Of a stretch of 64,000 nt of DNA, positions 7,629 to 40,792 are shown one piece after another. Origin of the DNA: Comamonas sp. lk (GTDB lineage Bacteria; Pseudomonadota; Gammaproteobacteria; Burkholderiales; Burkholderiaceae_C); NCBI GenBank assembly GCA_945925985.1, contig CAMELV010000007.1:62001-126000 (forward strand). The letters are read 5' to 3'. The position numbers and the translations under genes are program-made. A model generated the notes under the pieces. The model was not told where the DNA came from, made no database searches, and saw nothing but the letters and a program-made list of their open reading frames with translations. Each line of letters starts with the position of its first letter. Positions within the stretch are counted from its first letter, which is position 1.

Positions 7629-8396
7629 ATGATGAAGCACGCATTTGTGACCGGCGGCGGTGGAGACATAGGCGCGGCGATTGGCGCGCGGGCTATCGCG
7701 GCTGGCTACCAAGTGCTCCTAGTCGACCAAGACGGCGCCCGCGCGAAACAACAGGCCACTCAACTAAAGGGCGCCATCGGACTGGCCTGCGATGTCACCG
7801 ACGAGGCGTCCGTCGAATCTGCGCTAGACCTGGCCGCAACAAATTTCGGGGGCGCACCCGATCTCGTGGTCAACTGCGCGGGCATTGCCCGGTTCGCGCC
7901 CTTGATGGACCAGTCATTGGCCGACTTTCGCCGGGTCCTGGACGTTAATCTGGTCAGCGGCTTCATCGTCGGCCGAGCGGCTGCGCGCCGCATGGCCCAG
8001 CGGGGTTCAGGCTGCATCGTCAACATCACCTCTATCAATGGTGTCACGCCGGCACCCAACAGTGGGGCCTATCCTGCATCGAAGTCAGGGCTTGCCAAAC
8101 TAACCGAATTGATGGCTGTCGAATGGGGTCCCCTCGGATTGCGTGTCAACGCCGTCGCACCTGGTTTCATTGACGCAGGACTGTCGGCTCCATTTTTCGC
8201 AAATGAGACCGTGCGCAGCCTTCGAGAAAAAGCGGTGCCCACCCGGCGCCTGGGGCGATCCGAGGATATCGCGGACGCAGTGATTTTTCTGGCTTCGGAC
8301 GCTGCCAGCTATATCAACGGGCATGAATTGATTGTGGATGGCGGCGCCTCTCGCGCCTTGCTCGCCTTGCTGCCACGGGAGGCGCCCGGGTCATGA
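7629..8396 (+). CDS. SDR-family dehydrogenase/reductase
   Basis: A 255-residue classical SDR. The cofactor motif GGGGDIGAA lies near residue 9. An acidic residue after the second strand (LLVDQDG) suggests NAD(H) preference. NCAGIA, the Ser of NITSINGV and the YPASK catalytic motif (about residue 148) complete the active site. SDRs interconvert alcohols and ketones, so it probably oxidises a hydroxylated intermediate. Two adjacent ATG codons (7629, 7632) are possible. It is the first gene of the plus operon that continues into the LIV transporter 58 bases downstream. Confidence 0.9.
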   Translation: MMKHAFVTGGGGDIGAAIGARAIAAGYQVLLVDQDGARAKQQATQLKGAIGLACDVTDEASVESALDLAATNFGGAPDLVVNCAGIARFAPLMDQSLADFRRVLDVNLVSGFIVGRAAARRMAQRGSGCIVNITSINGVTPAPNSGAYPASKSGLAKLTELMAVEWGPLGLRVNAVAPGFIDAGLSAPFFANETVRSLREKAVPTRRLGRSEDIADAVIFLASDAASYINGHELIVDGGASRALLALLPREAPGS

Positions 8397-8454
8397 TGGT
8401 TACCAGCATCGGCGCGCAGATGGCCGCAATGCCCAGTCGGACCGGGAGAGCAGG

Positions 8455-9348
8455 ATGATCATCCAACAACTTCTGAATGGGCTGATCGTCGGTGGTGTAT
8501 ACGCCTTGTTCGCCATCGGCTTCACCCTGGTCTTTGGTATCCACCAGGTGTTAAACCTAGCCCATGGCGCTGTCTTTATGACCGGCGCATTTATTGCGCT
8601 GTATTCAGTGCTTGGAGGCTGGCCGCTGTGGGCCGGCTTTTTGCTGGCCATGTTGGGCAGCGGGCTGCTGTCCGTCCTGATCGAGTTTGGTGCGTTTCGC
8701 AAGCTGCGCAAAAGTGGGCCACTGGAGCTAGAGTTCGGCGCCATCATTACGTCTATCGGTGCCGGGTTGGCCATCATGGCCGTGGCGCAAAAGGTGTCAA
8801 ACACCCAGATCATGCGCTTCCCGTTCGAAACCATGCCCGTGGTAATTTTTGAATTCTTCGGTTTGCGTGTTTCGGCGCTGCAACTGGTCATGGCCGCTTG
8901 TGCAGCCATTCTGGTCGTAGGGTTGACGGCTTATCTGTACCGCACAGCGTTTGGGCGGCAGGTGAGAGCGGTGGCAGGTAATGAACGTGCGGCGACACTG
9001 GTCGGGGTCAACCCTAACTTTGTCTATTTTCAGACATTTTTCATGTCTGGCGCGTTGGCCGGCGCTGCTGGCGTGCTGGTAGGCCTGGCCTTCAACAGCA
9101 TTCACTTCGTGATGGGAGAGCCCTACCTTCTGCGCGGCTTTGTGGTGGTGATTCTCGGGGGCCTGGGCAGCATTCCGGGCGCCCTGTTGGCCGGCCTTTT
9201 GCTGGGCATGATGCAGACACTTACGGTGGCCTTCCTGCCTTCGGGCCTGACCGACACCATCATTTTTTCCTTGCTCTTTCTGATTCTGCTGTTCCGGCCG
9301 CACGGCCTGCTCGGCAAACCAGAAGCTGGCGCCATGCGGGGACGCTGA
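8455..9348 (+). CDS. livH: LIV-type ABC transporter permease (LivH type), system 1
   Basis: A 297-residue inner-membrane permease with about eight hydrophobic segments. The family N-terminus QQLLNGLIVGGVYALFAIG and the segment LNLAHGAVFMTGA are clear, and the late cytoplasmic loop reads GGLGSIPGALLAG. It forms the channel with the LivM protein of the next gene. The ATG at 8455 follows GGGAGAGCAGG and was chosen over an in-frame start at 8332 that overlaps the SDR gene. The family imports branched-chain amino acids, amides, urea or aromatic acids. The catabolic context favours an organic acid substrate. Confidence 0.93.
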   Translation: MIIQQLLNGLIVGGVYALFAIGFTLVFGIHQVLNLAHGAVFMTGAFIALYSVLGGWPLWAGFLLAMLGSGLLSVLIEFGAFRKLRKSGPLELEFGAIITSIGAGLAIMAVAQKVSNTQIMRFPFETMPVVIFEFFGLRVSALQLVMAACAAILVVGLTAYLYRTAFGRQVRAVAGNERAATLVGVNPNFVYFQTFFMSGALAGAAGVLVGLAFNSIHFVMGEPYLLRGFVVVILGGLGSIPGALLAGLLLGMMQTLTVAFLPSGLTDTIIFSLLFLILLFRPHGLLGKPEAGAMRGR

Positions 9349-10238
9349 TGCTGCAACTCTTTATTGCCTACCAGCCGCTGATTGACCTGTTCCTGCTGCA
9401 CTCGGGTTTGGCCCTGGCACAGTACCTCGTTTTGCGCGCTGGCGTGTTCTCGGTTGCCAATGCTGGACTGACAGCGATTGGCGCCTATTTGGCCGCTGGC
9501 CTGACGCTCAAGGCAGGCGTGCACCCTGCAGTCGCCATGGTGCTGGGTGCCATAGCCGGCATGCTGGTGTCGATGCTGCTCTCCCTGCCGCTGGCGCGCT
9601 TGCGGGGGGTCTACCAGGCGATCGCCACGCTCGCATTTGTTCAAGTGGTGTTGTCACTCAACGTCTACTCGGAGAGCCTCACCGGCGGAGCAATGGGCAT
9701 GAACGGCATCCCGAAAGTGGTGTCAACCTGGACGCTTCTGATTGCGCTGGCGTGCACGCTGTACATTGTCTGGGCGATCAACCAGACCCGCTTGGGGCGC
9801 GCCTTCGACGCGATCCGCCAGGACGAAACCGTTGCCGCTTCGTTGGGCACCTCGGTTCGCTACCATCAAACCGTGGCATTCGCCCTTTCGGGCGGCATCG
9901 CGGGCTTTTACGGCGGCTTGGAGGCTTTTCACTCGTATTCCATAGAACCCAGCCGGTTCGGCTTTGAGTTCGTTGTGGCCATCCTCTCGTACGTGGTTCT
10001 GGGCGGGCGCCGCTCGATCTGGGGGCCTGTGGTCGGCACTGCCGTTCTGCTGGCCCTGCCAGAGCTGGCACGGCCTTTGGCGGACTACCGAACCCTGGTC
10101 TATGGTCTGATCATGGTGTTGGTCATGGGCTATCTGCCACGCGGCGTCTACGACACCTTTGCGGAATTCCTTTACCGCCGACGCATTGCACGCATGGACC
10201 GCGCGGCCATGGCCAAATCACAAGGGGATGCGCCATGA
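9348..10238 (+). CDS. livM: LIV-type ABC transporter permease (LivM type), system 1
   Basis: A 296-residue inner-membrane permease, partner of LivH. Family features are the substrate-path segment ARLRGVYQAIATLAFVQV (about residue 83), RAFDAIRQDE in the ATPase-coupling loop and VLGGRRSIWGPVVG. Its start codon overlaps the livH stop (TGATG), which indicates translational coupling. The C-terminus is short and basic, with no fused ATPase domain. Confidence 0.93.
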   Translation: MLQLFIAYQPLIDLFLLHSGLALAQYLVLRAGVFSVANAGLTAIGAYLAAGLTLKAGVHPAVAMVLGAIAGMLVSMLLSLPLARLRGVYQAIATLAFVQVVLSLNVYSESLTGGAMGMNGIPKVVSTWTLLIALACTLYIVWAINQTRLGRAFDAIRQDETVAASLGTSVRYHQTVAFALSGGIAGFYGGLEAFHSYSIEPSRFGFEFVVAILSYVVLGGRRSIWGPVVGTAVLLALPELARPLADYRTLVYGLIMVLVMGYLPRGVYDTFAEFLYRRRIARMDRAAMAKSQGDAP

Positions 10239-10990
10239 GCACGCTGGTCCTGGACCAGGTGTCCAAGCATTTTGGCGGCGTGGTGGCAGCCGACAAGGTC
10301 TCCATGCAGATCCCGCCAGGACGCATTACCGGCCTCATCGGTCCCAACGGCGCAGGCAAGTCCACCATCGTCAACCTGATCACCGGCATGATGTCGCTCA
10401 CGGCCGGGACGATCCGCTTGGGCGACCGTGACCTGACGACTACCTCACCCCATGAGATCAGCCGAGCAGGGTTGGCACGGACTTTCCAGAATATTCGCCT
10501 GTTCAAGGAAGCGCCAGCCATTGACAACGTCATGGGTGGCTTCCACCGACACGAAGACAGCTCTTTACTGGCCAGCATCCTGGCCCTGCCCTCGGCCCGG
10601 GCCGAAACACGGCGCATTCGGGCGCGAGCCGCTGAATTACTGGAACGGTTCAACATGACGCGCTACGCCAGTTTTCCGGCGGGTGGCTTGGCTTATGGTC
10701 ACCAGCGGCGGGTCGAGTTCATGCGCGCCCTGGCCTCCCAACCGAACGTCTTGCTGCTCGACGAACCCGTGGCCGGCATGAATGACGTAGAGGCCAACGA
10801 GATGGGCGTGATCTTCAAGGAACTTGCCGCAGAGGGCATGGCAGTCTTGCTGATTGAGCACAACATGCGGTTTGTCACCCGACTGTGCGAACACGTCTAT
10901 GTCCTGGACGGCGGCCGTCTGATCTCTGAAGGCGAGCCCAAAAAAGTCATCGCCGACCCAGCCGTCATTGCTGCCTATCTGGGCGCCTGA
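10235..10990 (+). CDS. livG: LIV-type ABC transporter ATPase (LivG type), system 1
   Basis: A 251-residue ABC ATPase. Walker A is GPNGAGKST (about residue 36), the signature region is LAYGHQRR as in LivG proteins, and Walker B plus catalytic Glu is VLLLDEP; the H-loop lies in LLIEHNMRF. It powers import together with the LivF ATPase of the next gene. The start overlaps the livM stop by ATGA. Confidence 0.94.
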   Translation: MSTLVLDQVSKHFGGVVAADKVSMQIPPGRITGLIGPNGAGKSTIVNLITGMMSLTAGTIRLGDRDLTTTSPHEISRAGLARTFQNIRLFKEAPAIDNVMGGFHRHEDSSLLASILALPSARAETRRIRARAAELLERFNMTRYASFPAGGLAYGHQRRVEFMRALASQPNVLLLDEPVAGMNDVEANEMGVIFKELAAEGMAVLLIEHNMRFVTRLCEHVYVLDGGRLISEGEPKKVIADPAVIAAYLGA

Positions 10991-11003
10991 GCGAAGTAAC
11001 ACC

Positions 11004-11720
11004 ATGCTGGAAATCACGGATCTCAAAGCCAACTACAGTGGCATTCAGGCACTGCGCGGTGTCAGCCTGTCAGTCAAACAAGGGGAAATGGTTGCACTGA
11101 TCGGCCCCAATGGCGCAGGCAAGTCCACCCTGCTCAACTGCGTCAGCGCGCAAGTCCACCCCGCCGGCGGATCAATCAAGCTGGACGGCCGAGAGATGAT
11201 CGGCCAGAACGCCTGGACGGTGTCGCGATCCGGCCTGCTCCAAGTCCCAGAGGGTCGTCAAGTCTTTGCAGAAATGACCGTCCTGGAGAACCTTCAGCTG
11301 GGCGGTACCGCTTTACGTACGCGAGCAGCCGCCTACCCACTCAAGCGGGTGCTAGAACTGTTCCCCATTCTCGATGAACGCCGACAGCAGTTAGCTGGCT
11401 CACTGTCGGGCGGACAGCAACAAATGCTTGCGATTGGTCGTGCGTTGATGGGCGGCCCCCGACTGCTGCTGCTGGACGAACCCAGTCTGGGACTCGCGCC
11501 GCTGGTGGTCAAGCAAGTGTTTGCGACCTTGCGCGCGCTCAATGAGGGCGGCTTGACCATTTTGCTGATCGAACAAAACGCCAAGCAAGCGCTCGAGGTC
11601 ACCAGTCGGGCCTATGTGATCGAGCAGGGACGGATCGTCCACGCCGGTCCAAGCAGTGAACTGGCCAACGACCCGGAAATCGAAGCTCACTATTTGGGCC
11701 AGGGCGGCTCGACCGATTGA
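11004..11720 (+). CDS. livF: LIV-type ABC transporter ATPase (LivF type), system 1
   Basis: A 238-residue ABC ATPase with Walker A GPNGAGKST, the canonical signature LSGGQQQM, Walker B LLLLDEPS and the H-loop ILLIEQN. It pairs with LivG. The ATG at 11004, 14 bases after the livG stop, gives the standard LivF N-terminus (MLEITDLKANYSG) and was preferred to the upstream in-frame start at 10968. Confidence 0.94.
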   Translation: MLEITDLKANYSGIQALRGVSLSVKQGEMVALIGPNGAGKSTLLNCVSAQVHPAGGSIKLDGREMIGQNAWTVSRSGLLQVPEGRQVFAEMTVLENLQLGGTALRTRAAAYPLKRVLELFPILDERRQQLAGSLSGGQQQMLAIGRALMGGPRLLLLDEPSLGLAPLVVKQVFATLRALNEGGLTILLIEQNAKQALEVTSRAYVIEQGRIVHAGPSSELANDPEIEAHYLGQGGSTD

Positions 11721-11755
11721 TTTTCATTGACATTTTTTCAACAGGAGACTTTTTT

Positions 11756-12886
11756 ATGAAACCGATGATCTCTCTGCTGGCAGCGACCAGCGTTGCCATG
11801 CTAACCAGTGTCTCTTCAGCGCAAGCCCAGGAAGTCAAGTTGGGCGTGGTGATGTCCAACACCGGCACCTATGCTTTTGTGGGCACGCCCGTGATCAACG
11901 CCATCCGCATGGCTTTCGACGAGATGCAGGCCAGCAACTACTTCGGCACTACCAAGGTCAGCCTGATGATCGAGGACAACCGCTCGAATACGCAGGAAGC
12001 GCTGGCCCTTTTGACCCGGATGGCCACCCGCGATAACGCCGTCATGGTGATCGGTCCGGTCGCCACCGGCGAAGCCATGGCAGCCGCTCCAGTCGCCAAT
12101 GAATTAAAGATACCGATCTTCACTACTGCAACGTCGCCAGCCGTGCTGAAACCGGGTCCCTGGGTGTTTAAGGTAACTGAAACAGCCGACCAGTACATGA
12201 CTCTGCTGGGGGAACACATCGCTCAAAAACGAAAGCCCAAAAACTGCTTCAACATCACGATCAGAGATAACGAGGGGTACATCCTTCAAAACAACGTGTT
12301 CCGCGATACCATCAAAAAGGGTGGCGTGGCGATAGCTGCGGAGGAGTCAATCCTGTCGGCAGACACCGATTTCACCGCACTCGCCACCAAAATTGTCACC
12401 AGCAAGGCGGACTGCTTATTTCTTTCAACCCCGCCTGAGCAAGGTGCAAACATTATTTTGCAAGCCAGGCAGGCCGGTATGCCAGCGAACACGCTGTTGG
12501 TCGGTAATACTGGCATGGGCGCCAACTTTGTCAAGGCTGGCGGCTCGGCAGTTGATGGCACTGTGTTTTCTGCGGAATCCGTCCCAACCGGTGTTAACGA
12601 CCTTGCCAAGACTTTCATTGTGAACTACACCAAACGGTACAACGTGACGCCTGATTCCTGGGCCATGGTGGGCTACTCCATGGCTCTGATCGCGGCCAAT
12701 GCGATCAAAGCTGCGGGGCCCAACCCGACCCGTGACAAAGTGCGCGAAGCCATGCTGGCGACCAAAAATCTGCCCGTGGTCATCGGACGGGGCACGTGGT
12801 CCATTGCGGATCCTGTCACCCGCATACCGACCTTTGGCTACGCTGTGTTGAAGATTCAAGGCGGCAAATTTGTTGAAGACAAATAG
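11756..12886 (+). CDS. Periplasmic substrate-binding protein of LIV system 1
   Basis: A 376-residue type I periplasmic binding protein (ABC_sub_bind/Peripla_BP_6). A Sec signal peptide of about 24 residues ends at SSAQA and the mature protein starts QEVKLGVV. The fold shows GTYAFVGTP in the first lobe, VIGPVATGEAMA in the ligand cleft, then TDFTALATKI and the C-terminal TFGYAVLKI. It captures the solute for the LivHMGF complex encoded just upstream. The ATG at 11756 is preceded by ACAGGAGAC, whereas an in-frame start at 11717 would bury the signal peptide. Related proteins bind amino acids or aromatic acids, so the ligand is open. Confidence 0.92.
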   Translation: MKPMISLLAATSVAMLTSVSSAQAQEVKLGVVMSNTGTYAFVGTPVINAIRMAFDEMQASNYFGTTKVSLMIEDNRSNTQEALALLTRMATRDNAVMVIGPVATGEAMAAAPVANELKIPIFTTATSPAVLKPGPWVFKVTETADQYMTLLGEHIAQKRKPKNCFNITIRDNEGYILQNNVFRDTIKKGGVAIAAEESILSADTDFTALATKIVTSKADCLFLSTPPEQGANIILQARQAGMPANTLLVGNTGMGANFVKAGGSAVDGTVFSAESVPTGVNDLAKTFIVNYTKRYNVTPDSWAMVGYSMALIAANAIKAAGPNPTRDKVREAMLATKNLPVVIGRGTWSIADPVTRIPTFGYAVLKIQGGKFVEDK

Positions 12887-13002: not shown

Positions 13003-13764
13003 ATGCGTGAAGTGAAAGACATGTCGGTGCTGATCACGGGCGGCGGCTCTGGTATTGGCGAGGGAACGGCCCGTCTGTTTGCCGCGCGCGGCGCCAAAGT
13101 CACGATCAGCGGTAGGCGGCGGGACAAGATTGAGGCCGTCGCAGCCTCAATTGGCCCGGCCTGCAAGGCCGTGGTGGGCGATGTGACGGTACAGGCGGAT
13201 CGACTGGCTATGCTCGAGGCGGCGGTAGCACATGGTGGCAAGCTGGATGTGCTGGTGAATAATGCCGCCAATATGTACCGTCAAGCCATCGCTGAGTACA
13301 CCGAGCAGGTGCTGCAAGAAGCGTTCAATACCAATGTCATCTCTGGGATGATGCTGTCGAGTATGGCCGTTCCTCACCTCGAGAAAACACAGGGCGCCAT
13401 TATTTTCCTGGGCTCCATCCACAATCGACGGGCCTACCCTGGCGCCTCTCCCTACGCCACCACCAAGGCAGCCGTTGAGGGCCTGTCACGCGTGATGGCG
13501 GCTGAGCTTGGCAGGCGCCAAATTCGGGTGGCCTGCGTGCTGCCCGGCGCTGTCAGTACAGAGATCAACTTGCGCGCCGGCCTGTTTACAGCGGAGCAGG
13601 CTGACGCGCGCTATGCAGCCATCGCCCCAGACCATGCACTGGCCCGAATTGGCACGGTGGCTGAGGTTGCCGAGGCCATTGAATACCTAGCCCGTGCCGA
13701 GTGGGTGACAGGTGTCGCGCTTGAGGTTGACGGCGGCTTGGGACTTGGTGTGTCGAAGTTTTAA
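13003..13764 (+). CDS. SDR-family dehydrogenase/reductase
   Basis: A 253-residue classical SDR with the cofactor motif GGGSGIGEG (about residue 12), an Arg-rich patch after strand 2 (SGRRRDK) that suggests NADP(H), NNAANM, the catalytic Ser in FLGSIHNR and YATTK (about residue 153). The C-terminal GVALEVDGG is normal. The start is preceded by GAGGAAACC. It lies 116 bases after the binding-protein gene and immediately before the tandem P450s, so oxidation of a P450-made alcohol is plausible. Confidence 0.9.
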   Translation: MREVKDMSVLITGGGSGIGEGTARLFAARGAKVTISGRRRDKIEAVAASIGPACKAVVGDVTVQADRLAMLEAAVAHGGKLDVLVNNAANMYRQAIAEYTEQVLQEAFNTNVISGMMLSSMAVPHLEKTQGAIIFLGSIHNRRAYPGASPYATTKAAVEGLSRVMAAELGRRQIRVACVLPGAVSTEINLRAGLFTAEQADARYAAIAPDHALARIGTVAEVAEAIEYLARAEWVTGVALEVDGGLGLGVSKF

Positions 13765-13859: not shown

Positions 13860-15062
13860 GTGGCCTCCATCACCGTAAGCGACTATAAGCAGGCCAGTGA
13901 CACCCTGCGACTGACCGACCTTCGCCAGTCCTTGTATGACGAGGGCGCTATCTTGATGGACAAGGTCCTGGTCAACCTCCATGGCACAGAGCACCGCAAC
14001 CGCCGCAATGTCGAAGCCAAGGTGTTCCGCCGTGATTTTTTTCACTGGTATGAAAGGGAGATATTTCCCACCACACTCAGTGAGACGCTGCGCCCCTACC
14101 TGGACAACGGAAAGCTCGATTTGGTCGATTTCGGTTTTCGGGTCATGATGAACCTGACTGCCGACTTTGCTGGCGTCGATCGACCCAAGCGAACGGCTGA
14201 AGAGACGGCCCAACTGCTGCGAATCCTACGGACCTTCGGTAAGGCGGCTACCCTGGGACAGGCCTTGGGCAACCGCGATGAGATTCGTGCCGAGATTAGT
14301 CAGGCTCTGCGTGAATTTGACACCGATTTTTTTCAAGCCTCGCTGAAGCGACGTCAGGGCATCCTGGCTCAGTTTGAACGCGGCGAAGTCGCCGAGGACG
14401 ATTTGCCTCGCGACGTTCTGGTCGAGCTCTTGCGTAGCCGGGACGAGGTACCCATTGAGCCCGATGTATTGATGAAAGAGATCGGCTTCTTCCTGCTGGC
14501 CGGTGCCTTTACCTCCATCCACACGTTTACGCATGCCATGCACGAGATATTTTGCTGGCGCTCGGACCACCCAGAGGACGCGGCACGCTACCGGGAGGAC
14601 CCACTTTTTCTGCAAAAAGCCATTCATGAAAGCATGCGCCTGCACCCCTCCAGTCCGACGGCAGGACGACGCCCAGTTTGCCCGGTGCAATTGCCAACGG
14701 GCGACCAGGCGACGCCAGAAGACCAAGTCAATGTCGACCTGCTGTCTGCGAATCGCGATACAAAGGTATTTGGTGCTGACGCCGCCGACTACTGCCCCCA
14801 CCGGGAAATACCACGCGGCATTGGTCCCTACGGGTTGTCCTTCGGAACCGGCATGCATGCCTGCATCGGGCTGAATCTGGCCGCGGGGACGCTGCCAAGG
14901 GCAGACACCTTGGTGTCAGAGCACCAATTTGGAACCGTGACCTTGATCGCGCGGGAATTGATCTTGCACGGTGCCCGCCCTGACCCAGACGCAGCCGGCG
15001 TTGTGGACCGCTCGACAATCCGGAACAACTGGGCCAGCTATCCCATATTGCTAAATCTCTGA
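13860..15062 (+). CDS. Cytochrome P450, first of a tandem pair
   Basis: A 400-residue soluble bacterial P450. The ExxR motif is ESMR at 257-260. The haem loop is FGTGMHACIG, with the proximal Cys at 335. The I-helix reads AGAFTS at 214-219, where most P450s have AGxD/ET: the acidic residue of the proton-relay acid-alcohol pair is replaced by Phe. The protein aligns without gaps at these motifs to the next gene. GTG at 13860 follows AAGGAGAAGG. No ferredoxin or ferredoxin reductase gene accompanies it, so electrons must come from elsewhere. Predicted role: hydroxylation of the imported substrate. Confidence 0.88.
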   Translation: MASITVSDYKQASDTLRLTDLRQSLYDEGAILMDKVLVNLHGTEHRNRRNVEAKVFRRDFFHWYEREIFPTTLSETLRPYLDNGKLDLVDFGFRVMMNLTADFAGVDRPKRTAEETAQLLRILRTFGKAATLGQALGNRDEIRAEISQALREFDTDFFQASLKRRQGILAQFERGEVAEDDLPRDVLVELLRSRDEVPIEPDVLMKEIGFFLLAGAFTSIHTFTHAMHEIFCWRSDHPEDAARYREDPLFLQKAIHESMRLHPSSPTAGRRPVCPVQLPTGDQATPEDQVNVDLLSANRDTKVFGADAADYCPHREIPRGIGPYGLSFGTGMHACIGLNLAAGTLPRADTLVSEHQFGTVTLIARELILHGARPDPDAAGVVDRSTIRNNWASYPILLNL

Positions 15063-15074
15063 GGGGTAAAACTG

Positions 15075-16283
15075 TTGAAAACCATCACAGTCAGCGGCTA
15101 CGATGTGGCCTCCGACACGCTGCGGGATCAGCGCCTGGCGCAGTCGTTGTACGACGAAGGCGCGGTGATCATGGCGGATGTGCTTCTGGTACTGCACGGC
15201 GCCGAGCATCGGGCGCGACGACTGCTAGAGCTGCGAGTTTTCCGGAGAGATTTTTTTCGTTATTACGAGCACGTTGTCTTCCCCGCTACCTTGAAGCAAA
15301 CGGTCGCACCGTATGAAACCGCTGGCCGCGCTGACCTGATGGCATTGAGTTATCGGCTCACCATGAACCTTACGGCAGATTTTGCGGGCATTGACCGCCC
15401 GCTGCGCGATGCAGAAGAAACCGAACGCTTGCGGCGGCAAGTGATGGTGTTTAGTGAGGGCGCGACGCTGGTGCACTCCACTCGGGATAAAGAAACCGTT
15501 CGCAACGAAGTACGGGCTGCCCTGGCGGAATTCAAAACAACGTTTTATGAACCCTCTCTGGCCAGACGCGAACTGCTGCTCGCCGACTTTGCAGCCGGAA
15601 AGATCACGGAAGAAGATGTTCCGCGAGATGTATTGACCGTGCTTTTGAAAAACGATGAACGGGTGGAAATGGCGCCCGATCTGATGATGCGGGAAATTGC
15701 CTTTTATCTGCAGGCGGGTTCGCACAGTACCGCCAATGCCACGGCCCATGCCTTCCATGATGTCATCACCTGGTGCGCCAACCATCCCCACGATCAGCAA
15801 CGGGTCGACATGGACCCCCTGTTCCTTCAACGATGCGTCCATGAAAGCCTTCGACTTCACCCCGCCAGCCCAGTCGCTTGGCGCCGGTCAACTTGCCCCA
15901 TGACACTCCCAACAGGCGCCGATGCCGATGCCGATGACCGGGTGGTGATAGACCTGGCAACCGCTAATCGCGATCCGTCGATCTTTGGTGCCGATGCCGA
16001 TACCTTCAACCCCCATCGCACCTTGCGCGAAGGGACGCCGCCCTGGGGTTTGACCTTCGGCATCGGCGTGCATACCTGCCTGGGGCGTGACCTCGATGGA
16101 GGCGTACAGCCACGGGCTGACACCGACCCTTTGACCCATCAATATGGCATCGTCCCGCTATTGGTACAAGAGCTCCTCAAGCGCAAAGCGCGTCCCGACC
16201 CGACTGACCCAGCTCGTGCGGCCAGCCACACCGAGCGCGCGAACTGGGGTTACTACCCGATACTTTTAGATCCCGTGTGCTGA
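15075..16283 (+). CDS. Cytochrome P450, second of a tandem pair
   Basis: A 402-residue P450 paralogous to the preceding gene; both share SQ/GYxxASDTLR near the N-terminus and the QSLYDEGA stretch. ExxR is ESLR starting at 257, and the haem loop is FGIGVHTCLG with Cys335. The I-helix reads AGSHST at 214-219, again without the usual acid: His occupies its place and Ser the next. TTG at 15075 follows GAGGGG with normal spacing, 12 bases after the first P450's stop, so the two are probably co-translated. A pair acting in sequence or as a heterodimer is possible. Confidence 0.87.
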   Translation: MKTITVSGYDVASDTLRDQRLAQSLYDEGAVIMADVLLVLHGAEHRARRLLELRVFRRDFFRYYEHVVFPATLKQTVAPYETAGRADLMALSYRLTMNLTADFAGIDRPLRDAEETERLRRQVMVFSEGATLVHSTRDKETVRNEVRAALAEFKTTFYEPSLARRELLLADFAAGKITEEDVPRDVLTVLLKNDERVEMAPDLMMREIAFYLQAGSHSTANATAHAFHDVITWCANHPHDQQRVDMDPLFLQRCVHESLRLHPASPVAWRRSTCPMTLPTGADADADDRVVIDLATANRDPSIFGADADTFNPHRTLREGTPPWGLTFGIGVHTCLGRDLDGGVQPRADTDPLTHQYGIVPLLVQELLKRKARPDPTDPARAASHTERANWGYYPILLDPVC

Positions 16284-16297
16284 TGGGAAGTCCACTC

Positions 16298-16321
16298 ATG
16301 AACAAAGGCACCCAGAGATGA
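16298..16321 (+). CDS. Mini-ORF coupled to the downstream unknown gene
   Basis: ATG at 16298 follows GGGAAG at good spacing and encodes MNKGTQR. Its TGA (16319-16321) overlaps the ATG at 16318 of the next gene. The larger gene has only a weak ribosome-binding site of its own, so reinitiation from this mini-ORF could drive it. Seven codons may also arise by chance. Confidence 0.3.
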   Translation: MNKGTQR

Positions 16322-17160
16322 TTGACCTTCAAACCGTGCTCTTTGAATCGGTTCGCGGTGACATCGTGGCCTTGGACAGTGCAGCTGATGTTTTGCCACG
16401 CAACAGGGGACGAGACGTGTTGGTCACGGCATCCTATATCGGGGTACTACCTGCTCGTCTGGTTCACGATCAACTGCCTCGTGCTGTGATCGGCTTCGAT
16501 GGTGGTGTTGGTCCGCAGGGCGCGAACATCGCTGGCCTTTGGTATTACGAGGCCTTGAACATACCTGCGGCGGCAGTGGATGTGATGTCGATCATCCTGG
16601 GCGACGGCGTCGATGTCTATGACAACGGACGCGTCAGTTTCTTCAACCGCCCGGCTGCTGACTGCGGCGTGCTCATAGGAATGCCAGCCCGGGAGGCGGC
16701 ACACCTGATGCTCAAACACGAACCAGGCAAACCAACGGCCTATCAGGTTACCAACCGACAGGTCGTTCATCAAAGCACTGCCGGCCGTCAGGTCGTGGTC
16801 ACTGATTCCATCATATTCGGCACCGAAGCTGACAAGGCTAACGTGCTGGTTACCGCGGGGCACACCGGCCGAAGTGGCGCCAGACACATCATCAACGTTC
16901 ATCCGTTTGGGTTCATTTGTTCAGACGGAGGACGCGGCCGGAACGACTCTGGCATGGCCGGTCTGGCACTAACCAACGACGCCGGCATAGCAGGCGCGAC
17001 GGTCGATGCCAAGCTTGCACGAATGGGCGACGGCATGAGCACCTATGACGATGGCATCGTGAGTGCAGCCAACACCTTGGCACTTAGCTGTGGGGTGAAG
17101 GTCGGGATGACCGCCAAGGATGCCGCACTTTGCCTGGTCAACCGTTGTCAAGCGTTCTGA
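16318..17160 (+). CDS. Unrecognised protein made of two internal repeats (copy 1)
   Basis: A 280-residue protein of a family I do not recognise, without a signal peptide or membrane segment. Residues 18-131 and 158-273 are two divergent copies of one unit. Each has an Asp-Ser opening (LDSAAD; TDSIIF), a strand VLVTA followed by SYIG or GHTG, a cleft-like DGG (FDGGVGPQGA; SDGGRGRNDS), AGL, then A..VD.....GDG and a turn-rich YD.G..S..N segment. The best conserved residues between the halves, and with the paralogue at 38628, are Asp, Gly, Asn and Ser, which suggests a ligand or metal site repeated twice. It ends the operon SDR - transporter - SDR - P450 - P450. Its 3' end overlaps the convergent crotonase gene by 23 bases. 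An enzymatic role in the pathway is inferred only from context. Confidence 0.8.
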   Translation: MIDLQTVLFESVRGDIVALDSAADVLPRNRGRDVLVTASYIGVLPARLVHDQLPRAVIGFDGGVGPQGANIAGLWYYEALNIPAAAVDVMSIILGDGVDVYDNGRVSFFNRPAADCGVLIGMPAREAAHLMLKHEPGKPTAYQVTNRQVVHQSTAGRQVVVTDSIIFGTEADKANVLVTAGHTGRSGARHIINVHPFGFICSDGGRGRNDSGMAGLALTNDAGIAGATVDAKLARMGDGMSTYDDGIVSAANTLALSCGVKVGMTAKDAALCLVNRCQAF

Positions 17161-29694: not shown

Positions 29695-30828
29695 ATGAGC
29701 TCAAAGAAAAAAGTTTTCAAGGCACTCGCCTTGGCTGCGGCGCTGTCGCTGGCATCGCATGCTGCTTTGGCAGCCGATCGCAAGATCGTGATTTTGCAGG
29801 CCCTCACCGGCGGCGCAGCCTTCGTGGGCGTTCCGGCGTCCGACGGCATGAAGTTTGCCGCCGACGAGCTGAACGCCAAAAACTTCCTCGGTGCTGACAA
29901 AATCACGTACGAAGTGGTCGACAGCGCGACCGCCCGGGCCCAGGCCATGGCCGCCATCACGCGGTACGCGGCAGATCCCAATGTTCTGTTCATCCTCGGC
30001 CCGACGACCGCCCCCGAGGCCATACCATCCGCTGGCGTAGCCAATGACGCCAAGATCGGGATGAAGGCCATGACCAATGCCGTTGCGCTGCTCAGCGCGG
30101 GCCCGTGGGGCTTCATTTCTGCACAGCCACCGGTCATCACTATGCCGCAACTTGGCGACTACGCTATTGACGTTGCCAAGGTGAAATCCTGCGCCACGAT
30201 TCGCTTTAGTGACAACGAAGCCTATGTGGACTTGGAACGAATTTTCGTCGAGCACACACAAAAACGCGGCATGACCATCGTGGACCGATCGGGCATCAAG
30301 TCGGCCGATTCCGACTTTTCTGCAGTGGCCACCCGTATCGTTGCCGCCAAGCCTGACTGCGTCATGTTGTTTACCCTCGGCCCGAGCGCGGCCAATCTCG
30401 CCATACAGCTCAAGCAGGCTGGATTGCCGCCCAGTGTCAAGCTGATTGGCCAAACCGGGCTGTCCTCACCTCAGTTGGTGCAGATTGGTGGCGCAGCAGT
30501 TGAAGGCCTTGTCTTTAACTCTGATTGGACGCCAGGCGGTAATTCACCGGAAGGTCGTACTTTCGCCGCCAACTACAAGGCCAAGACTGGCAAGGACGCT
30601 GACAACTGGGCTGCGCTGGGCTACAGCTATATGACAGTTGTGGCCACTGCCATCAAGGCGGCCGGTCCCAACCCGACGCGCGAGTCCATCCGTGATGCCC
30701 TGACTAAAACAAAGGACGTACCGGTTGTTATCGGCACCGGTAAATACAGCTATGTGAACCGGATTCCGACCTACGGCTCGGTGTTCCTGATGGTGAAAGA
30801 CGGCAAGTTCGTCCCCGCGCCTCAATAA
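29695..30828 (+). CDS. Periplasmic substrate-binding protein of LIV system 2
   Basis: A 377-residue type I periplasmic binding protein. The signal peptide has a Lys-rich start (MSSKKKVFK), a hydrophobic core and cleavage after HAALA at about residue 26. The mature lobe 1 begins KIVILQALTGGAAFVG, with ILGPTTAPEAIPS near the ligand cleft and ADSDFSAVATRI in lobe 2. It is clearly homologous to the proteins at 11756 and 39472. The ATG follows CACAGGAGACAC. Its own promoter is proposed at 29606-29634, and a stable hairpin follows its stop codon. Confidence 0.93.
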   Translation: MSSKKKVFKALALAAALSLASHAALAADRKIVILQALTGGAAFVGVPASDGMKFAADELNAKNFLGADKITYEVVDSATARAQAMAAITRYAADPNVLFILGPTTAPEAIPSAGVANDAKIGMKAMTNAVALLSAGPWGFISAQPPVITMPQLGDYAIDVAKVKSCATIRFSDNEAYVDLERIFVEHTQKRGMTIVDRSGIKSADSDFSAVATRIVAAKPDCVMLFTLGPSAANLAIQLKQAGLPPSVKLIGQTGLSSPQLVQIGGAAVEGLVFNSDWTPGGNSPEGRTFAANYKAKTGKDADNWAALGYSYMTVVATAIKAAGPNPTRESIRDALTKTKDVPVVIGTGKYSYVNRIPTYGSVFLMVKDGKFVPAPQ

Positions 30829-30840
30829 GCGTGGCGTCCC

Positions 30841-30876
30841 GGGAGCCGCTTGCGCCTAGCAAGGCCAGCGGCTCCC
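30841..30876 (+). other. Intercistronic hairpin between binding protein and permease
   Basis: GGGAGCCGCT (30841-30850) and AGCGGCTCCC (30867-30876) are perfect inverted 10-base arms with a 16-base loop. No T-run follows. It starts 12 bases after the binding-protein stop codon. Hairpins placed here commonly protect the upstream message, so that more binding protein than permease is made (inference). Confidence 0.6.
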
Positions 30877-30897
30877 TGTAATCACAACCCACCCCCT

Positions 30898-31794
30898 ATG
30901 ATTGCTCAACAAGTATTGAACGGCCTGGTTCTGGGCGGCGTCTATGCGCTTTTTGCGCTGGGCTTTACCCTGATTTTTGGCATTCATCGCATCATGAACA
31001 TGGCGCACGGTGCGGTGTTCATGTCCGGCGCCTTCATTGGCTTGTACACGGTGCGCCTTGGCCTGCCACTCTGGGCGGCCTTGCCGGTTGCCATGGTTGG
31101 CGCTGGCTTTGTTTCTATTCTGATTGAGGTGGTCGCCTTCAAGCCATTGCGCAAGCTAGCGCTGGCAGATGCGGAACTTGCGTCGATCATCTCCAGCATT
31201 GGCGCCGGCCTGATCATTTTGAGCATAGGGCAATACGTATCGAAGACCGAAACAATGCGTTTTCCGTTTGGCACAGTGCCGATCGACGCAGTCGTAGTTT
31301 TCGGTCTGCGCGTCACAGCGCTACAGTTGCTGATGCTGGGCGTTGCTGTAGCCAGTGTGGCGGTTTTAGCGCTCTACCTCTACCGCACACCGCAGGGTCG
31401 ACAGGTGAGAGCCGTGGCCGGCAACTACCGTGCCGCGCAGTTGCTGGGCGTCAACCCAAACGCAATTTTCTACCAAACTTTCTTTGTCTCCGGCGCGCTC
31501 GCCGGTGCGGCCGGTGTCATGGTCGGCCTGGCGTTCAATGCCATCCAGTTCCTGATGGGAGAGCCCTTTCTGCTCAAGGCCTTCGTGGCCATCATCCTGG
31601 GCGGACTCGGCAGCGTTCCGGGTGCGCTGGTAGGTGGCCTGGTTCTCGGCCTGCTGCAGTCCTTGTCGGTTGCCTATCTCCCGGCGCTGCTGGTGGATGC
31701 AGTCATATTCCTCCTGTTGTTCGCGATTCTGATGGTGCGTCCAGATGGCCTCTTTGCGCAGAGCACGATGGAATCACCGACCAAACGCGTTTAG
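30898..31794 (+). CDS. livH: LIV-type ABC transporter permease (LivH type), system 2
   Basis: A 298-residue inner-membrane permease with the family N-terminus QQVLNGLVLGGVYALFALG, MNMAHGAVFMSGA, GVNPNAIFYQTFF and GGLGSVPGALVGG. It differs from the LivH proteins of systems 1 and 3, which resemble each other more closely. The ATG at 30898 gives the standard N-terminus; an in-frame start at 30850 would lie in the hairpin. No clear ribosome-binding site is visible before it. Confidence 0.93.
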   Translation: MIAQQVLNGLVLGGVYALFALGFTLIFGIHRIMNMAHGAVFMSGAFIGLYTVRLGLPLWAALPVAMVGAGFVSILIEVVAFKPLRKLALADAELASIISSIGAGLIILSIGQYVSKTETMRFPFGTVPIDAVVVFGLRVTALQLLMLGVAVASVAVLALYLYRTPQGRQVRAVAGNYRAAQLLGVNPNAIFYQTFFVSGALAGAAGVMVGLAFNAIQFLMGEPFLLKAFVAIILGGLGSVPGALVGGLVLGLLQSLSVAYLPALLVDAVIFLLLFAILMVRPDGLFAQSTMESPTKRV

Positions 31795-31813
31795 GCTCCG
31801 AGGCACCTTGACC

Positions 31814-32695
31814 ATGATGAATTTTTTCGCGCCGCATTTGCCGCTTCTCGACCTGATCTTCGTCGGCACCGGTTATGCGCTCAGCCAAGCGATCGTGTTT
31901 CGCGCCGGCACCTTTTCCGTGGCCACCTCGGGATTTGCCGCAGTGGGCGCTTACGCGGCTGCCATTCTGACCGTCAAGCACGGCTTTCACCCCGCCGCCG
32001 GGGTTGCAGTGGGCACTCTGCTTGGTCTGCTGTGCGGGCTACTCCTGTCGGTGCCGCTGGCGCGTTTGCGCGGCGTCTATCAAGCCATTGCATCCTTGGC
32101 CTTTGTTGAAATCGTAGTCGCTTTCATTCTCTTTTTCGAGGAATTGACTGGCGGACCTCTGGGGTTTCACAACATACCGCGGGCGGCCACAACCTGGACC
32201 CTGTTTCTTGCCATGCTGGCCACCATGGCACTGCTGATCTTGCTCGGGAAGGGAGGCATCGGGCGCGCCTTCGATGCCATCCGCCAAGATCCGCCGGTTG
32301 CAGCCTCCCTGGGCGTCAACCCAACCAAGTACCACGTCTTGTCCTTTGCACTTTCGGGCGCTATTGCTGGTCTTTTCGGCGGGCTGGACGCCATGCGCAA
32401 TTTCAGTCTGACGGCGGAACAGTTCGGCTTCGCTATCCTGATTGGTACGCTGTCTGCGGTAGTACTGGGTGGCCGCCGTTCGGTTATGGGGCCACTGGTC
32501 GGAACGACCATTCTGGTATTGCTACCGGAGATTTTCAGACCGTTGGCGGACTACCGGCAGGCGATTTACGGTCTGCTACTTGTCGTGGTCATGGCCTTCC
32601 TTCCGTTCGGCGTCTACGACACGATCATCATGAAACTTCACAATCGACGGCTTGCGCGCGCAGGCATGTTGTTGCCACCCAAGGCCGCATCATGA
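31814..32695 (+). CDS. livM: LIV-type ABC transporter permease (LivM type), system 2
   Basis: A 293-residue inner-membrane permease. Family segments are GYALSQAIVFRAGTFSVA near the N-terminus, ARLRGVYQAIASLAFVEI, RAFDAIRQDPPVAASLG and VLGGRRSVMGPLVG. ATG codons at 31814 and 31817 are both possible; a longer frame from 31745 would overlap livH. Its TGA overlaps the ATG of a 22-codon mini-ORF leading into livG. Confidence 0.92.
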   Translation: MMNFFAPHLPLLDLIFVGTGYALSQAIVFRAGTFSVATSGFAAVGAYAAAILTVKHGFHPAAGVAVGTLLGLLCGLLLSVPLARLRGVYQAIASLAFVEIVVAFILFFEELTGGPLGFHNIPRAATTWTLFLAMLATMALLILLGKGGIGRAFDAIRQDPPVAASLGVNPTKYHVLSFALSGAIAGLFGGLDAMRNFSLTAEQFGFAILIGTLSAVVLGGRRSVMGPLVGTTILVLLPEIFRPLADYRQAIYGLLLVVVMAFLPFGVYDTIIMKLHNRRLARAGMLLPPKAAS

Positions 32696-32760
32696 ACGCC
32701 GCGCCGAATCAGTTCAGACCTGCTTGCGCCATCATGGTTAAGACGGCGGTGGTCCCGTGA
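32692..32760 (+). CDS. 22-residue mini-ORF linking livM and livG of system 2
   Basis: Its ATG (32692-32694) overlaps the livM stop as ATGA, and its TGA (32758-32760) overlaps the GTG start of livG (32757-32759). The peptide, MNAAPNQFRPACAIMVKTAV followed by VP, has no recognised motif. Such a chain would carry ribosomes across the 61-base gap to a livG start that lacks a strong ribosome-binding site. It could be a coupling device or an accident of sequence. Confidence 0.4.
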   Translation: MNAAPNQFRPACAIMVKTAVVP

Positions 32761-33530
32761 GTTCGCTAGTCCTTACCGGGGTTGGCAAGCGCTTCGGCGG
32801 CCTTCAGGCCGTGTCACCTTTCGACATGGAGATCGCCCGCGGCAAGATCACCGGACTGATCGGACCCAATGGTGCTGGTAAGACGACAGTGGTCAACCTC
32901 ATTACTGGCGTCTACAAACTCAGCCAGGGCAGCATCCGATTTGGCGACATCGACCTAACCGAGGCGACGCGGCATGAAGTAGCACGCGCTGGTCTGGCTC
33001 GCACCTACCAGACCATCCGCTTGCTTCCCGATGCCACGGTCGTCGCCAACGTCATGATCGGGATGTACCGACACCAGAGGGCTCCCCTGTTGTCGCAGCT
33101 TTTTGCATTGCCTTCATCAAGGGCGGAAACGGCGCGTTTTCGTGACGAGGTGTTTCATTTGCTTGAGCGCTTTGGCATGACTCGCTACGCAGAGTACCCA
33201 GCAGGTGCTCTGTCTTACGGCGACCAGCGCCGCGTAGAAATGATGCGTGCACTCGCCCTCAAACCAGAGGTGCTGCTGCTCGACGAGCCCGTGGCCGGCA
33301 TCAACGAGGTCGAAGCTGCTAAATTGGGCGATATCTTCCGCGCGCTGGCCACTGAAGGCAAAGGTATGGCCGTGCTGCTGATAGAACACAACATGCGCTT
33401 CGTGACCAAGCTCTGCGACTATGTGTACGTGCTCGACAGCGGCACACTGATTTCTCAAGGCAGCGCCGAACAGGTCGTCAACGATCCCGTGGTCGTCAAG
33501 GCCTATCTTGGAGACGATGAAGATGCTTGA
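32757..33530 (+). CDS. livG: LIV-type ABC transporter ATPase (LivG type), system 2
   Basis: A 257-residue ABC ATPase: Walker A GPNGAGKTT, signature region LSYGDQRR, Walker B VLLLDEP, H-loop LLIEHNMRF. The GTG start at 32757 yields the normal LivG N-terminus. It overlaps the stop of the 22-codon mini-ORF, and only a weak ribosome-binding site is present. Confidence 0.92.
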   Translation: MSSLVLTGVGKRFGGLQAVSPFDMEIARGKITGLIGPNGAGKTTVVNLITGVYKLSQGSIRFGDIDLTEATRHEVARAGLARTYQTIRLLPDATVVANVMIGMYRHQRAPLLSQLFALPSSRAETARFRDEVFHLLERFGMTRYAEYPAGALSYGDQRRVEMMRALALKPEVLLLDEPVAGINEVEAAKLGDIFRALATEGKGMAVLLIEHNMRFVTKLCDYVYVLDSGTLISQGSAEQVVNDPVVVKAYLGDDEDA

Positions 33531-34257
33531 GATCAGCAATCTGCACGCGGGCTACAGCGGTAACGCGGTACTCCACGGCGTTTCCATTAACGTCGCCCGG
33601 GGAGATATGGTGACGATCATCGGCCCCAATGGCGCCGGCAAGTCCACACTCCTCAATTGCATCAGTGGGCTCCTCGGCATTACAGGCGGCACCATCAAGC
33701 TCGAAGGCCGTGACATCGCCGGCGAGGACGCCTACCGCATTTCACGCGCCGGACTGCTTCAGGTACCCGAGGGGCGCCAAATCCTGGGCGAGCTTTCGGT
33801 GCTTGAGAACCTGCAGCTTGGCGTAACTGCCCTGCATGGCCGCAAGCCCACCCACGACCTGCGCCGGATCTACGCCTTGTTTCCGATCCTTGAGGAGCGT
33901 GGACGGCAGCGAGCCGGGTCGCTTTCTGGCGGCCAGCAGCAGATGCTGGCCATCGGACGCGCACTGATGGGCGGGCCGCGCCTGCTGCTGCTCGACGAGC
34001 CCAGCCTGGGCTTGTCACCGTTGCTGGCGAAAACGGTGTTGGCTGCGCTGGGAGAGCTCAACCGGGAAGGTCTCACCATCTTGTTGGTCGAGCAGAACGC
34101 ACGTGCGGCCTTGCGCGCCACCAACCATGGTTTCGTGCTTGAGCAGGGGCGGATTGTGCACCAGGGCCCCAGCGCCGATCTGGCACGAGACCCGGATGTG
34201 ATTGCACATTACCTCGGTCAGGCCGGTGCATCCGCTAAAGCAGTTGCGCCAACCTAG
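33523..34257 (+). CDS. livF: LIV-type ABC transporter ATPase (LivF type), system 2
   Basis: A 244-residue ABC ATPase with Walker A GPNGAGKST, signature LSGGQQQM, Walker B LLLLDEPS and H-loop ILLVEQN. The ATG at 33523 has GGAG nine bases upstream and overlaps the livG stop. In-frame starts at 33508 and 33517 are also possible. It ends the second transporter and is followed 34 bases later by the aldolase-like gene. Confidence 0.93.
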   Translation: MLEISNLHAGYSGNAVLHGVSINVARGDMVTIIGPNGAGKSTLLNCISGLLGITGGTIKLEGRDIAGEDAYRISRAGLLQVPEGRQILGELSVLENLQLGVTALHGRKPTHDLRRIYALFPILEERGRQRAGSLSGGQQQMLAIGRALMGGPRLLLLDEPSLGLSPLLAKTVLAALGELNREGLTILLVEQNARAALRATNHGFVLEQGRIVHQGPSADLARDPDVIAHYLGQAGASAKAVAPT

Positions 34258-36965: not shown

Positions 36966-37850
36966 ATGATGTTCGAAGGTTTTCAGCGTAGAAAAATTGA
37001 GGTTGACGGCGCCACCATCAACTGCGTTTATGGGGGACAGGGTGACCCGGTCTTGCTGCTGCATGGTTATCCACAGACTCTAAGCGAATGGGCAAAATTA
37101 GCCCCCCTGTTGGCTGAACAGCATACCGTTGTTTGTGCCGACCTGAGAGGCTATGGCGACTCTTCCAAGCCCGTCGGTGCGGCAGACCACAGCAACTACA
37201 GCTTTCGCGCCATGGCCGCGGACCAGGTATCGCTGATGCGGACACTGGGACACGAGCGCTTTCATGTGGTCGGGCATGACCGTGGTGGGCGCGTCTCACA
37301 CCGGATGGCATTGGACTGGCCGGATCAAGTACGCTCGCTCTCGGTTCTTGATCTCGTGCCTACCCACGCGCTTTACAACCAGACCAATCGCAAGTTGGCG
37401 GCCACCTATTGGCAATGGTATTTCCTACCCCTGCCGACGCCGTTTCCGGAACGGCTGATCGGTGCAGACCCAGACTACTATTTTGAAAACTGCCTGGTCA
37501 GTGTCGGCGGCAAAGGCCTGGACAGCTTTGACGCCGACATGTTGGCGGAATACCGCCGTTGCTGGCGTGATCCGGCCATGATCCACGCGTCCTGCTGCGA
37601 CTACCGCGCGGGAGCCAGCGTCGATCTAGCCCATGATGAGGCCGATCTGCACGTCAAACTTGATTGTCCAGTTTTCGCTTTGTGGGGGGCCGATGGACTC
37701 ATGTGCAAACTGATGGACATTGAGGCTGCTTGGAGGGCGAGATGCGCCAACCTTCGGGTAGACCAGGTCCCGGGAGGGCACTGGTTTCCCGAGCATGCTG
37801 CGGCGCAGACGGCCGCCAAGCTCATTGAATTTTTCCGGTCAAACGGATAG
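36966..37850 (+). CDS. Alpha/beta hydrolase, haloacetate-dehalogenase-like
   Basis: A 294-residue alpha/beta-hydrolase with a cap domain. HGYPQTLSEW carries the oxyanion loop, and the nucleophile is Asp105 in GHDRGGR, followed by Arg106 and Arg109, the carboxylate-binding pair of fluoroacetate dehalogenases. The catalytic His is at about 272 (GGHWFPEH), and DYRAGASVDLAHDEAD is also family-typical. At the position where fluoroacetate dehalogenases have His in YWHW, this protein has Gln150 (YWQW), which would weaken the halide pocket. Hydrolysis of an ester, epoxide or lactone of a carboxylated substrate is therefore an alternative. AGGGAG precedes the ATG. Confidence 0.87.
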   Translation: MMFEGFQRRKIEVDGATINCVYGGQGDPVLLLHGYPQTLSEWAKLAPLLAEQHTVVCADLRGYGDSSKPVGAADHSNYSFRAMAADQVSLMRTLGHERFHVVGHDRGGRVSHRMALDWPDQVRSLSVLDLVPTHALYNQTNRKLAATYWQWYFLPLPTPFPERLIGADPDYYFENCLVSVGGKGLDSFDADMLAEYRRCWRDPAMIHASCCDYRAGASVDLAHDEADLHVKLDCPVFALWGADGLMCKLMDIEAAWRARCANLRVDQVPGGHWFPEHAAAQTAAKLIEFFRSNG

Positions 37851-37866
37851 CTGCAAGGAAACAACC

Positions 37867-38625
37867 ATGGCGATGAGATTTGACGGGAAAGTACTGCTGA
37901 CGACCGGTGGCGGCTCGGGTTTAGCCGCGGCAGTGGCACGGCGGTTCGCCAGCGAAGGTGGGCGGGTTGCCGTGTTGGACCTGGATGGTGCACGCGCTAC
38001 TGCCGTCGCCGCCGAATTGAAGGGCTCGCTCGGCTTGGCGGTGGATGTTGCCAGTGAAGATGGCGTGCGGGACGCCGTGGCCACGGTGCATCGGGAGATG
38101 GGGCGTATCGATTGCGTCTTCAATGCGGCAGGCCACGCCGACTTCGGCCCCATCGAAACGTGGACGCTTGAACGTTGGAACCGCATGATGGGTGTTCACG
38201 TTGGCGGCACTTTTCTGGTCTGCAAATATGTCTTGCCGATCATGCGCTCGCAAGGGGGAGGCTCGATTGTCAATGTGGCGTCCATAGCCGCCATGGTGGC
38301 GCAGCCCAACAATTCGCCCTACGGCGCGGCCAAAGGCGCTATCGTTGGGTTTTCCCGCCAACTGGCCTTAGAAGCAGCGCCCTTGGTACGGGTCAATGTC
38401 GTAGCGCCGGGCCGCATACGAACCGGCATGACCGTCCCCTTGTGGCAACAGCGCGGCGGCGGCAATCTGGAAGCGGGTGTATCGCAGGCGGCCGTCCTCA
38501 ATATGCTCAAACGTGTCGGTGAACCCGATGACATCGCCGGGCCGGTTTGTTTCCTGTTTTCGGATGACGCGGCTTTCATGACCGGAACCACATTGGTTCC
38601 AGACGGCGGTGAGACTGCGGTCTGA
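37867..38625 (+). CDS. SDR-family dehydrogenase/reductase
   Basis: A 252-residue classical SDR. Its cofactor motif is GGGSGLAAA (about residue 13), where the last Gly of the usual GxxxGxG is Ala. The Asp after strand 2 (AVLDLDG) suggests NAD(H). NAAGHADF, the Ser of NVASIAAM and the YGAAK motif (about residue 153) are present. AAGGAAACAACC precedes the ATG. Its stop is two bases before the start of the duplicated unknown gene, so the pair is tightly coupled. Confidence 0.9.
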   Translation: MAMRFDGKVLLTTGGGSGLAAAVARRFASEGGRVAVLDLDGARATAVAAELKGSLGLAVDVASEDGVRDAVATVHREMGRIDCVFNAAGHADFGPIETWTLERWNRMMGVHVGGTFLVCKYVLPIMRSQGGGSIVNVASIAAMVAQPNNSPYGAAKGAIVGFSRQLALEAAPLVRVNVVAPGRIRTGMTVPLWQQRGGGNLEAGVSQAAVLNMLKRVGEPDDIAGPVCFLFSDDAAFMTGTTLVPDGGETAV

Positions 38626-40599: not shown

Positions 40600-40792
40600 A
40601 AGGGGTATCTCCAACGTTTAAAGTGGGCTAGGCCGTAGGTATTTTCCTGCAAAGAAGTGAGGTGTATCTAGGGGTTTCCCCAAGTAAGCGCCTCTGATTT
40701 AAAGGTGCTCCGAGCGGTCGGTGGCGCCAGTTTTCTGCTGCACATTTAAATGGCAATGCTGCAGAAATTTACACTTGTTACGGGACTCGAGC
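40600..40792. promoter_or_regulatory. Divergent intergenic region with TTTAAA-centred motifs
   Basis: This 193-base gap separates the divergent binding-protein and flavoprotein genes and must hold both promoters. TTTAAA occurs three times (40617, 40698, 40745), the last inside the perfect palindrome CATTTAAATG (40743-40752). GGGGTTTCCCC is a second small palindrome. No convincing -35/-10 pair could be picked by eye. Confidence 0.35.

Follow-up and report, generated by a model that had tools for sequence, protein, structure and literature searches.

A two-repeat protein in a catabolic gene region of Comamonas

We analysed a 64,000-nucleotide stretch of Comamonas sp. lk (contig CAMELV010000007.1, positions 62,001 to 126,000; hereafter the window), in which an open reading frame (ORF) on the forward strand at positions 16318–17160 encodes a protein of 280 residues, here called P0001. 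The original prediction, made from the sequence alone, had described an unrecognised protein at this position built from two copies of one repeat and tied to a catabolic operon, and the reading frame is as it described. Codon changes relative to two relatives showed that the ORF is under purifying selection, with nonsynonymous and synonymous rates (dN, dS) of 0.03 and 0.38 against the relative in locus L001 and 0.08 and 1.28 against that in L002. Because dN is well under dS in both comparisons, the ORF looks like a real gene. No signal peptide was apparent by eye in P0001. Two family members from Aminobacter (L021:9890–10843 and L026:9866–10819) have a signal-like N-terminus by eye, and an exported version may exist.

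The internal repeat was borne out. The N-terminal repeat spans residues 12–137 (16351–16728, forward strand) and the C-terminal repeat residues 155–277 (16780–17148, forward strand), and alignment of residues 2–137 with residues 143–277 gave 41% identity over 96 ungapped residues (E 2e-18). The Smith-Waterman score of one half against the other was 155; when the second half was shuffled 1000 times, scores averaged 28.9 and never exceeded 52. Half-profiles taken from an alignment of 20 sequences that includes P0001 (A1) matched each other with an hhalign probability of 99.7 (E 1.3e-26), far above the best of 40 column-shuffled controls (3.6). The order of strands and helices is predicted to be alike in both halves, save for an extra short helix at residues 170–174 in the second.

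The family to which P0001 belongs is built on one alpha/beta domain of about 120 residues, found either on its own or doubled in tandem. Among all ORFs from the fetched loci there were 97 non-identical family proteins, of which 57 have two repeats and 40 a single domain; only exact copies were merged, so near-identical pairs count twice, and contig ends were not screened member by member, one type I row (L014) being cut off. Three apparent fusions (L088, 631 residues; L089; L050) were judged by eye to reflect too-early starts in GC-rich DNA and were set aside. One further copy was found in the same genome, at 38628–39458 of the window on the forward strand, with 276 residues and 60% identity to P0001.

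The family has no name in the libraries searched

P0001 drew only sub-threshold Pfam matches, to DUF1805 and to the IMS domain, and no match in NCBIfam. A phmmer search of PDB sequences with P0001 returned chance rows only (best E 0.27), and phmmer and profile searches of PDB sequences together gave only Y-family polymerase and chance rows, none better than E 0.12. In PHROGs the one match to P0001 was weak (E 0.005, residues 240–277), and the function of the matched family is unknown. The family therefore carries no name in Pfam or NCBIfam, in line with the original failure to place it, and no relative turned up among PDB sequences.

Genome contigs yielded relatives in 15 loci, and 13 of 72,556 plasmid records also matched: three from Rhodococcus, two from Aminobacter, five from haloarchaea and one each from Rhizobium, Ponticoccus and Methylovirgula. 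In the plasmid tables the matched genes are listed as hypothetical proteins; the H2 match reaches an adjacent OB-fold gene as well, and the H3 match is unannotated. Among sampled whole genomes, a count that takes in the query genomes, matches occurred in 3 of 369 at the level of the class (single-sequence query) and 6 of 398 at the level of the phylum (two-repeat profile). With a one-repeat profile they occurred in 72 of 399 genomes from the bacterial family of Comamonas sp. lk and in 16 of 199 from the order of genome G545, itself picked because it had a match; a few of the matches in these one-repeat-profile tallies are partial, or weak and close to the threshold.

A single histidine is conserved, and P0001 keeps it in its second repeat only

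Residue counts over the 97 proteins, made on all ORFs rather than on called genes only, single out two positions. His182 (codon 16861–16863, forward strand) is His in 57/57 C-terminal repeats and 40/40 single-domain members, and Asp203 (codon 16924–16926, forward strand) is Asp in 57/57 and 39/40, respectively. In the N-terminal repeats, His stands at the first position in 24 of 57 and Asp at the second in 50 of 57. The Asn252 position is Asn in all 57 N-terminal repeats, all 40 single-domain members and 52 of the 57 C-terminal repeats. In one or both of its repeats P0001 carries the family motifs SHGG/GHTG, which holds the invariant His, (N/S)D(A/G)G, GD, G.(I/V)S..N and GV..GM, and its C-terminal repeat bears D163, S164, H182, D203, R235, S249 and N252.

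A midpoint-rooted tree of 137 repeats divided 54 two-repeat proteins between type I (30 proteins, both window copies among them) and type II (24). The tree and type counts exclude 13 gene models whose loci were short or duplicated, and the tree and neighbour counts omit 13 of the 60 later-fetched loci, as well as L030 and L039, where no family gene was called. The N- and C-terminal repeats of type I form one group (support 67, rising to 94 if one stray type II N-terminal repeat is added), and the type II C-terminal repeats cluster with single-domain members (support 85). Since type I halves group with each other and type II C-terminal repeats with single-domain members, the tree suggests two separate doublings, with moderate support only.

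The two types differ in their first repeat. At the His position the type I N-terminal repeats carry Tyr in 27 of 30 and Phe in 2, one being cut off and none having His, whereas type II has His in 21 of 24. Arg at the R235 position is found in 25/30 C-terminal and 2/30 N-terminal repeats of type I, against 21/24 and 23/24 in type II. The SYIG and GHTG turns noted originally are present in the respective halves of P0001, but in the first of them Tyr40 replaces the conserved His. P0001 therefore keeps this His in its C-terminal repeat only, as type I pairs do, and its halves, alike in sequence, are not equivalent in residues. The suggestion of two equivalent sites is not supported for P0001. Across the 137 repeats, a 55% conservation threshold was exceeded by just one column of His and by none of Cys, so the pattern lends no support to a His-rich metal site.

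A predicted fold resembling TA1206/DUF1805

Predicted alone, the C-terminal stretch (16744–17148) gave a confident model (predicted local distance difference test, pLDDT, 91.7; predicted template modelling score, pTM, 0.89). D163-S164, H182 and D203 are modelled on consecutive strands, each at the strand's C-terminal end. In the whole-protein model the pLDDT drops to 62 and 65 in the blocks containing two glycine-rich loops (residues 61–70 and 201–210). The predicted domain conforms to the TA1206 fold, its best structural match is 1QW2, a DUF1805 protein, and the modelled fold most resembles TA1206/DUF1805. Foldseek returned no match at E <0.001 against the PDB, nor against viral models with a single repeat as query.

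That P0001 is simply an ordinary DUF1805 protein appears improbable. The match to 1QW2 and the sub-threshold matches to the DUF1805 model (PF08827) speak for it, but none of five members tested reached the 29.5-bit cut-off: P0001 scored 20.8, the second window copy 26.6 and two others 21.7 and 16.5, and the fifth had no hit. The hhalign comparison of the two families gave a probability of 47 over just 28 columns, where the highest value among 40 shuffles was 1.6. The DUF1805 model is 64 positions long, and two DUF1805 sequences compared lack the SHGG and NDAG motifs. The DUF1805 model had zero matches in the Comamonas sp. lk genome, and of 299 genomes from the phylum 2 gave a match above its cut-off. 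The DUF1805/COG3377 family, which takes in YunC and TA1206 (PDB 1QW2), is linked to the tRNA methylase Trm11 (PMC9425974).

A second resemblance, to Y-family DNA polymerases (IMS, PF00817), was read as local mimicry and rejected. What the two share is a short strand-helix stretch, G.iS..N..A...GV..GM...EA, and the best-matching stretches are 28 to 39 residues long, against 148 positions in the model, and fall short of the whole catalytic domain; P0001 scored 22.9 bits, below the 23.2 cut-off, over residues 244–271 only. Two members (L013:10973–11833, 31.1 bits; L019:1234–2286, 24.2 bits) exceed the cut-off through such short stretches, and a Y-family polymerase label on them is probably a false annotation.

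Neighbouring genes in the window

The P0001 gene is preceded on the same strand by Liv-type transporter-like genes (assigned by eye), a short-chain dehydrogenase (SDR; 13003–13764) in a probable operon, a cytochrome P450-like gene (13860–15062) and a second P450-like gene (15075–16283) that ends 34 bases upstream of P0001. The best Pfam stretch of each P450-like protein covers about residues 250–341, and the two resemble a divergent tandem pair; counting the window, five loci have P450-like neighbours that fall into this cluster. The second family copy follows, on the forward strand, an alpha/beta hydrolase (36966–37850) and another SDR (37795–38625) that ends 2 bases before it. The window copies belong to different subtypes that share about 60% identity, and because these are adjacent in L008 and near one another in L011 and L014, and L013 carries two family copies, the subtypes may serve one pathway.

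Elsewhere in the window, three Liv-type ABC transporter-like sets were recognised by eye (8332–12886, 29695–34257 and 42632–45883), interleaved with acyl-CoA, SDR and amidohydrolase genes. An FAD-dependent protein is encoded at 40721–42430; its best NCBIfam names are 3-ketosteroid dehydrogenases, below cut-off, which would fit a cyclic substrate.

The family recurs in carboxylic-acid breakdown clusters

We tallied Pfam families within two genes of family members, scanning the listed neighbours of single-domain (105 of 106), type I (80 of 97) and type II members (85 of 89); the family genes themselves, a very long and a short ORF, rows that were repeated and loci that were near-duplicates were dropped, and as related loci are present these counts are not independent events. 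Around single-domain members the leading families were TctC (13), DUF1840 (9) and AMP-binding (6); around type I, SDR (PF13561; 13), TctC (9) and P450 (9); and around type II, SDR (9), TctC (6), IclR (5), DctM (4) and thiamine-diphosphate (ThDP) enzymes (4), with three further transketolase-type ThDP enzymes. For scale, TctC matches ranged from 7 to at least 79 per genome (at least 79 in three) across 18 sampled genomes between 2.8 and 6.2 Mb in size, and the 4.29-Mb Comamonas sp. lk genome contains 63 SDR matches, by our estimate roughly 1 to 2% of genes if there is one gene per kilobase. ThDP-enzyme homologues occur in 13 of 78 loci with called family genes (8 type II, 5 single-domain), a raw count, as is that for P450.

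More specific settings also recur. A salicylyl-CoA 5-hydroxylase-type protein lies within four genes of single-domain members in seven loci, and the one tested, from L053, scored over its NCBIfam cut-off. OiaX-like RuBisCO-like proteins occur near a family gene in L022, L028, L029, L041 and L046; for the proteins of L041 and L022, NCBIfam ranks OiaK and OiaX first, with scores short of the curated cut-offs. Members adjoin RuBisCO-like and four-carbon acid sugar kinase genes, reminiscent of the D-apionate gene set, on haloarchaeal plasmids and in L041, but the majority of the members found occur in other settings, and to our knowledge the family is not among the D-apionate pathway enzymes. Taken together, the family recurs in clusters for the breakdown of sugar acids, aromatics and other carboxylic acids in several bacterial groups and in salt-loving archaea, and the originally proposed tie to catabolism extends to distant taxa.

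Several local arrangements were also seen. An SDR subtype with the motif GWGNGKA occurs, in all six called genes, within three genes of type II members (L071, L072, L074, L081, L082, L088). In L044 (4691–7865) a single-domain member overlaps genes for a ketoacyl synthase III-like protein and a ThDP enzyme, resembling a small biosynthetic operon. DUF1840 lies within two genes of single-domain members in nine loci (L042, L047, L050, L052, L053, L056, L065, L096, L102).

These neighbours bear on two alternative roles. Beside single-domain members no family is seen more often than the TctC receptors (13/105), and a TctC-like receptor is the next same-strand gene in L047, L052 and L056; with the TRAP-type DctM genes, they would suit a non-catalytic carboxylate binder that regulates or assists uptake or flux. 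We consider such a role unlikely: one His kept in all 97 C-terminal repeats and single-domain members is more typical of catalysis, and transport receptors act outside the membrane, whereas P0001 has no signal peptide by eye, the two signal-like Aminobacter members aside. A hydrolytic role is about equally doubtful, such as that of a lactonase acting on cyclic esters produced by the neighbouring SDR. SDRs are the commonest enzyme family beside two-repeat members, OiaX/OiaK-like genes adjoin members, and D-apiose breakdown includes a lactone step. That job may, however, be filled by other genes, such as the SMP-30/gluconolactonase-like gene beside the L041 member (L041:7211–8125) or the alpha/beta hydrolase upstream of the second window copy. 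In addition, no Ser is invariant, S164 being Ala in 3/57 C-terminal repeats and S249 being replaced in 4/57 (one a gap) and in 8/40 single-domain members, and no Cys column exceeds 55%.

A possible acid-base enzyme of carboxylate catabolism

P0001 is plausibly a small enzyme. The reading that we prefer, at a probability of roughly 0.3, is a cofactor-independent enzyme of carboxylate catabolism in which H182 and D203 would act as an acid-base pair, most likely shifting a proton next to a carbonyl as an isomerase, tautomerase or epimerase does. Its substrates would be oxo- or hydroxy-acid intermediates made or used by the neighbouring dehydrogenases. R235, S249 and N252 may hold the carboxylate or enolate, the glycine-rich loop after D203 (GGRGRNDSG), of low confidence in the model, could close over the substrate, and the N-terminal repeat would serve as a scaffold or as the second half of the pocket. 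We favour cofactor-independent acid-base chemistry because a strict His and a near-strict Asp lie beside a low-confidence loop, no Cys or second His is widely conserved, and the neighbours make or use oxo- and hydroxy-acids. Enolisation would be the preferred reaction; its ThDP-neighbour support comes from type II and single-domain loci and is extended to P0001 by family likeness. A PurE/LarB-like carboxylase or decarboxylase seems a poorer candidate.

Several observations weigh against this assignment. First, the residues permit several roles, of which enolisation is just one; at the R235 position single-domain members have Arg in 27/40, Cys in 12/40 and Lys in 1/40, and position 227 is commonly Cys (62%) in the same set. 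Second, the neighbours indicate many pathways and no single substrate, with many of the loci related, and SDRs are scarce beside single-domain members (2/105). Third, ThDP-enzyme homologues occur in 0 of 25 loci of type I, P0001's own type, so that this argument bears on P0001 only indirectly. Fourth, the whole-protein model has a pTM of 0.60, leaving the relative orientation of the halves, and with it any pocket at their interface, uncertain. Lastly, our searches found no member with a reaction, ligand or solved structure, and the passage on DUF1805 consulted (PMC9425974) gives it no function.

On a broader and still tentative view, slightly less probable than the assignment of P0001 itself, this would be a new enzyme family, a general carbonyl-isomerising or enolising module in bacterial and haloarchaeal carboxylate pathways, whose single-domain ancestor doubled, perhaps twice, with one site lost in type I. 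The family is common in the bacterial family of Comamonas sp. lk and unnamed in the libraries searched. Because some members lie beside genes of known or likely function, such as the OiaK/OiaX-like and salicylyl-CoA 5-hydroxylase genes, the list of substrates to consider is short. Assigning a reaction would annotate many catabolic clusters together and could hint at the function of the TA1206/DUF1805 fold.
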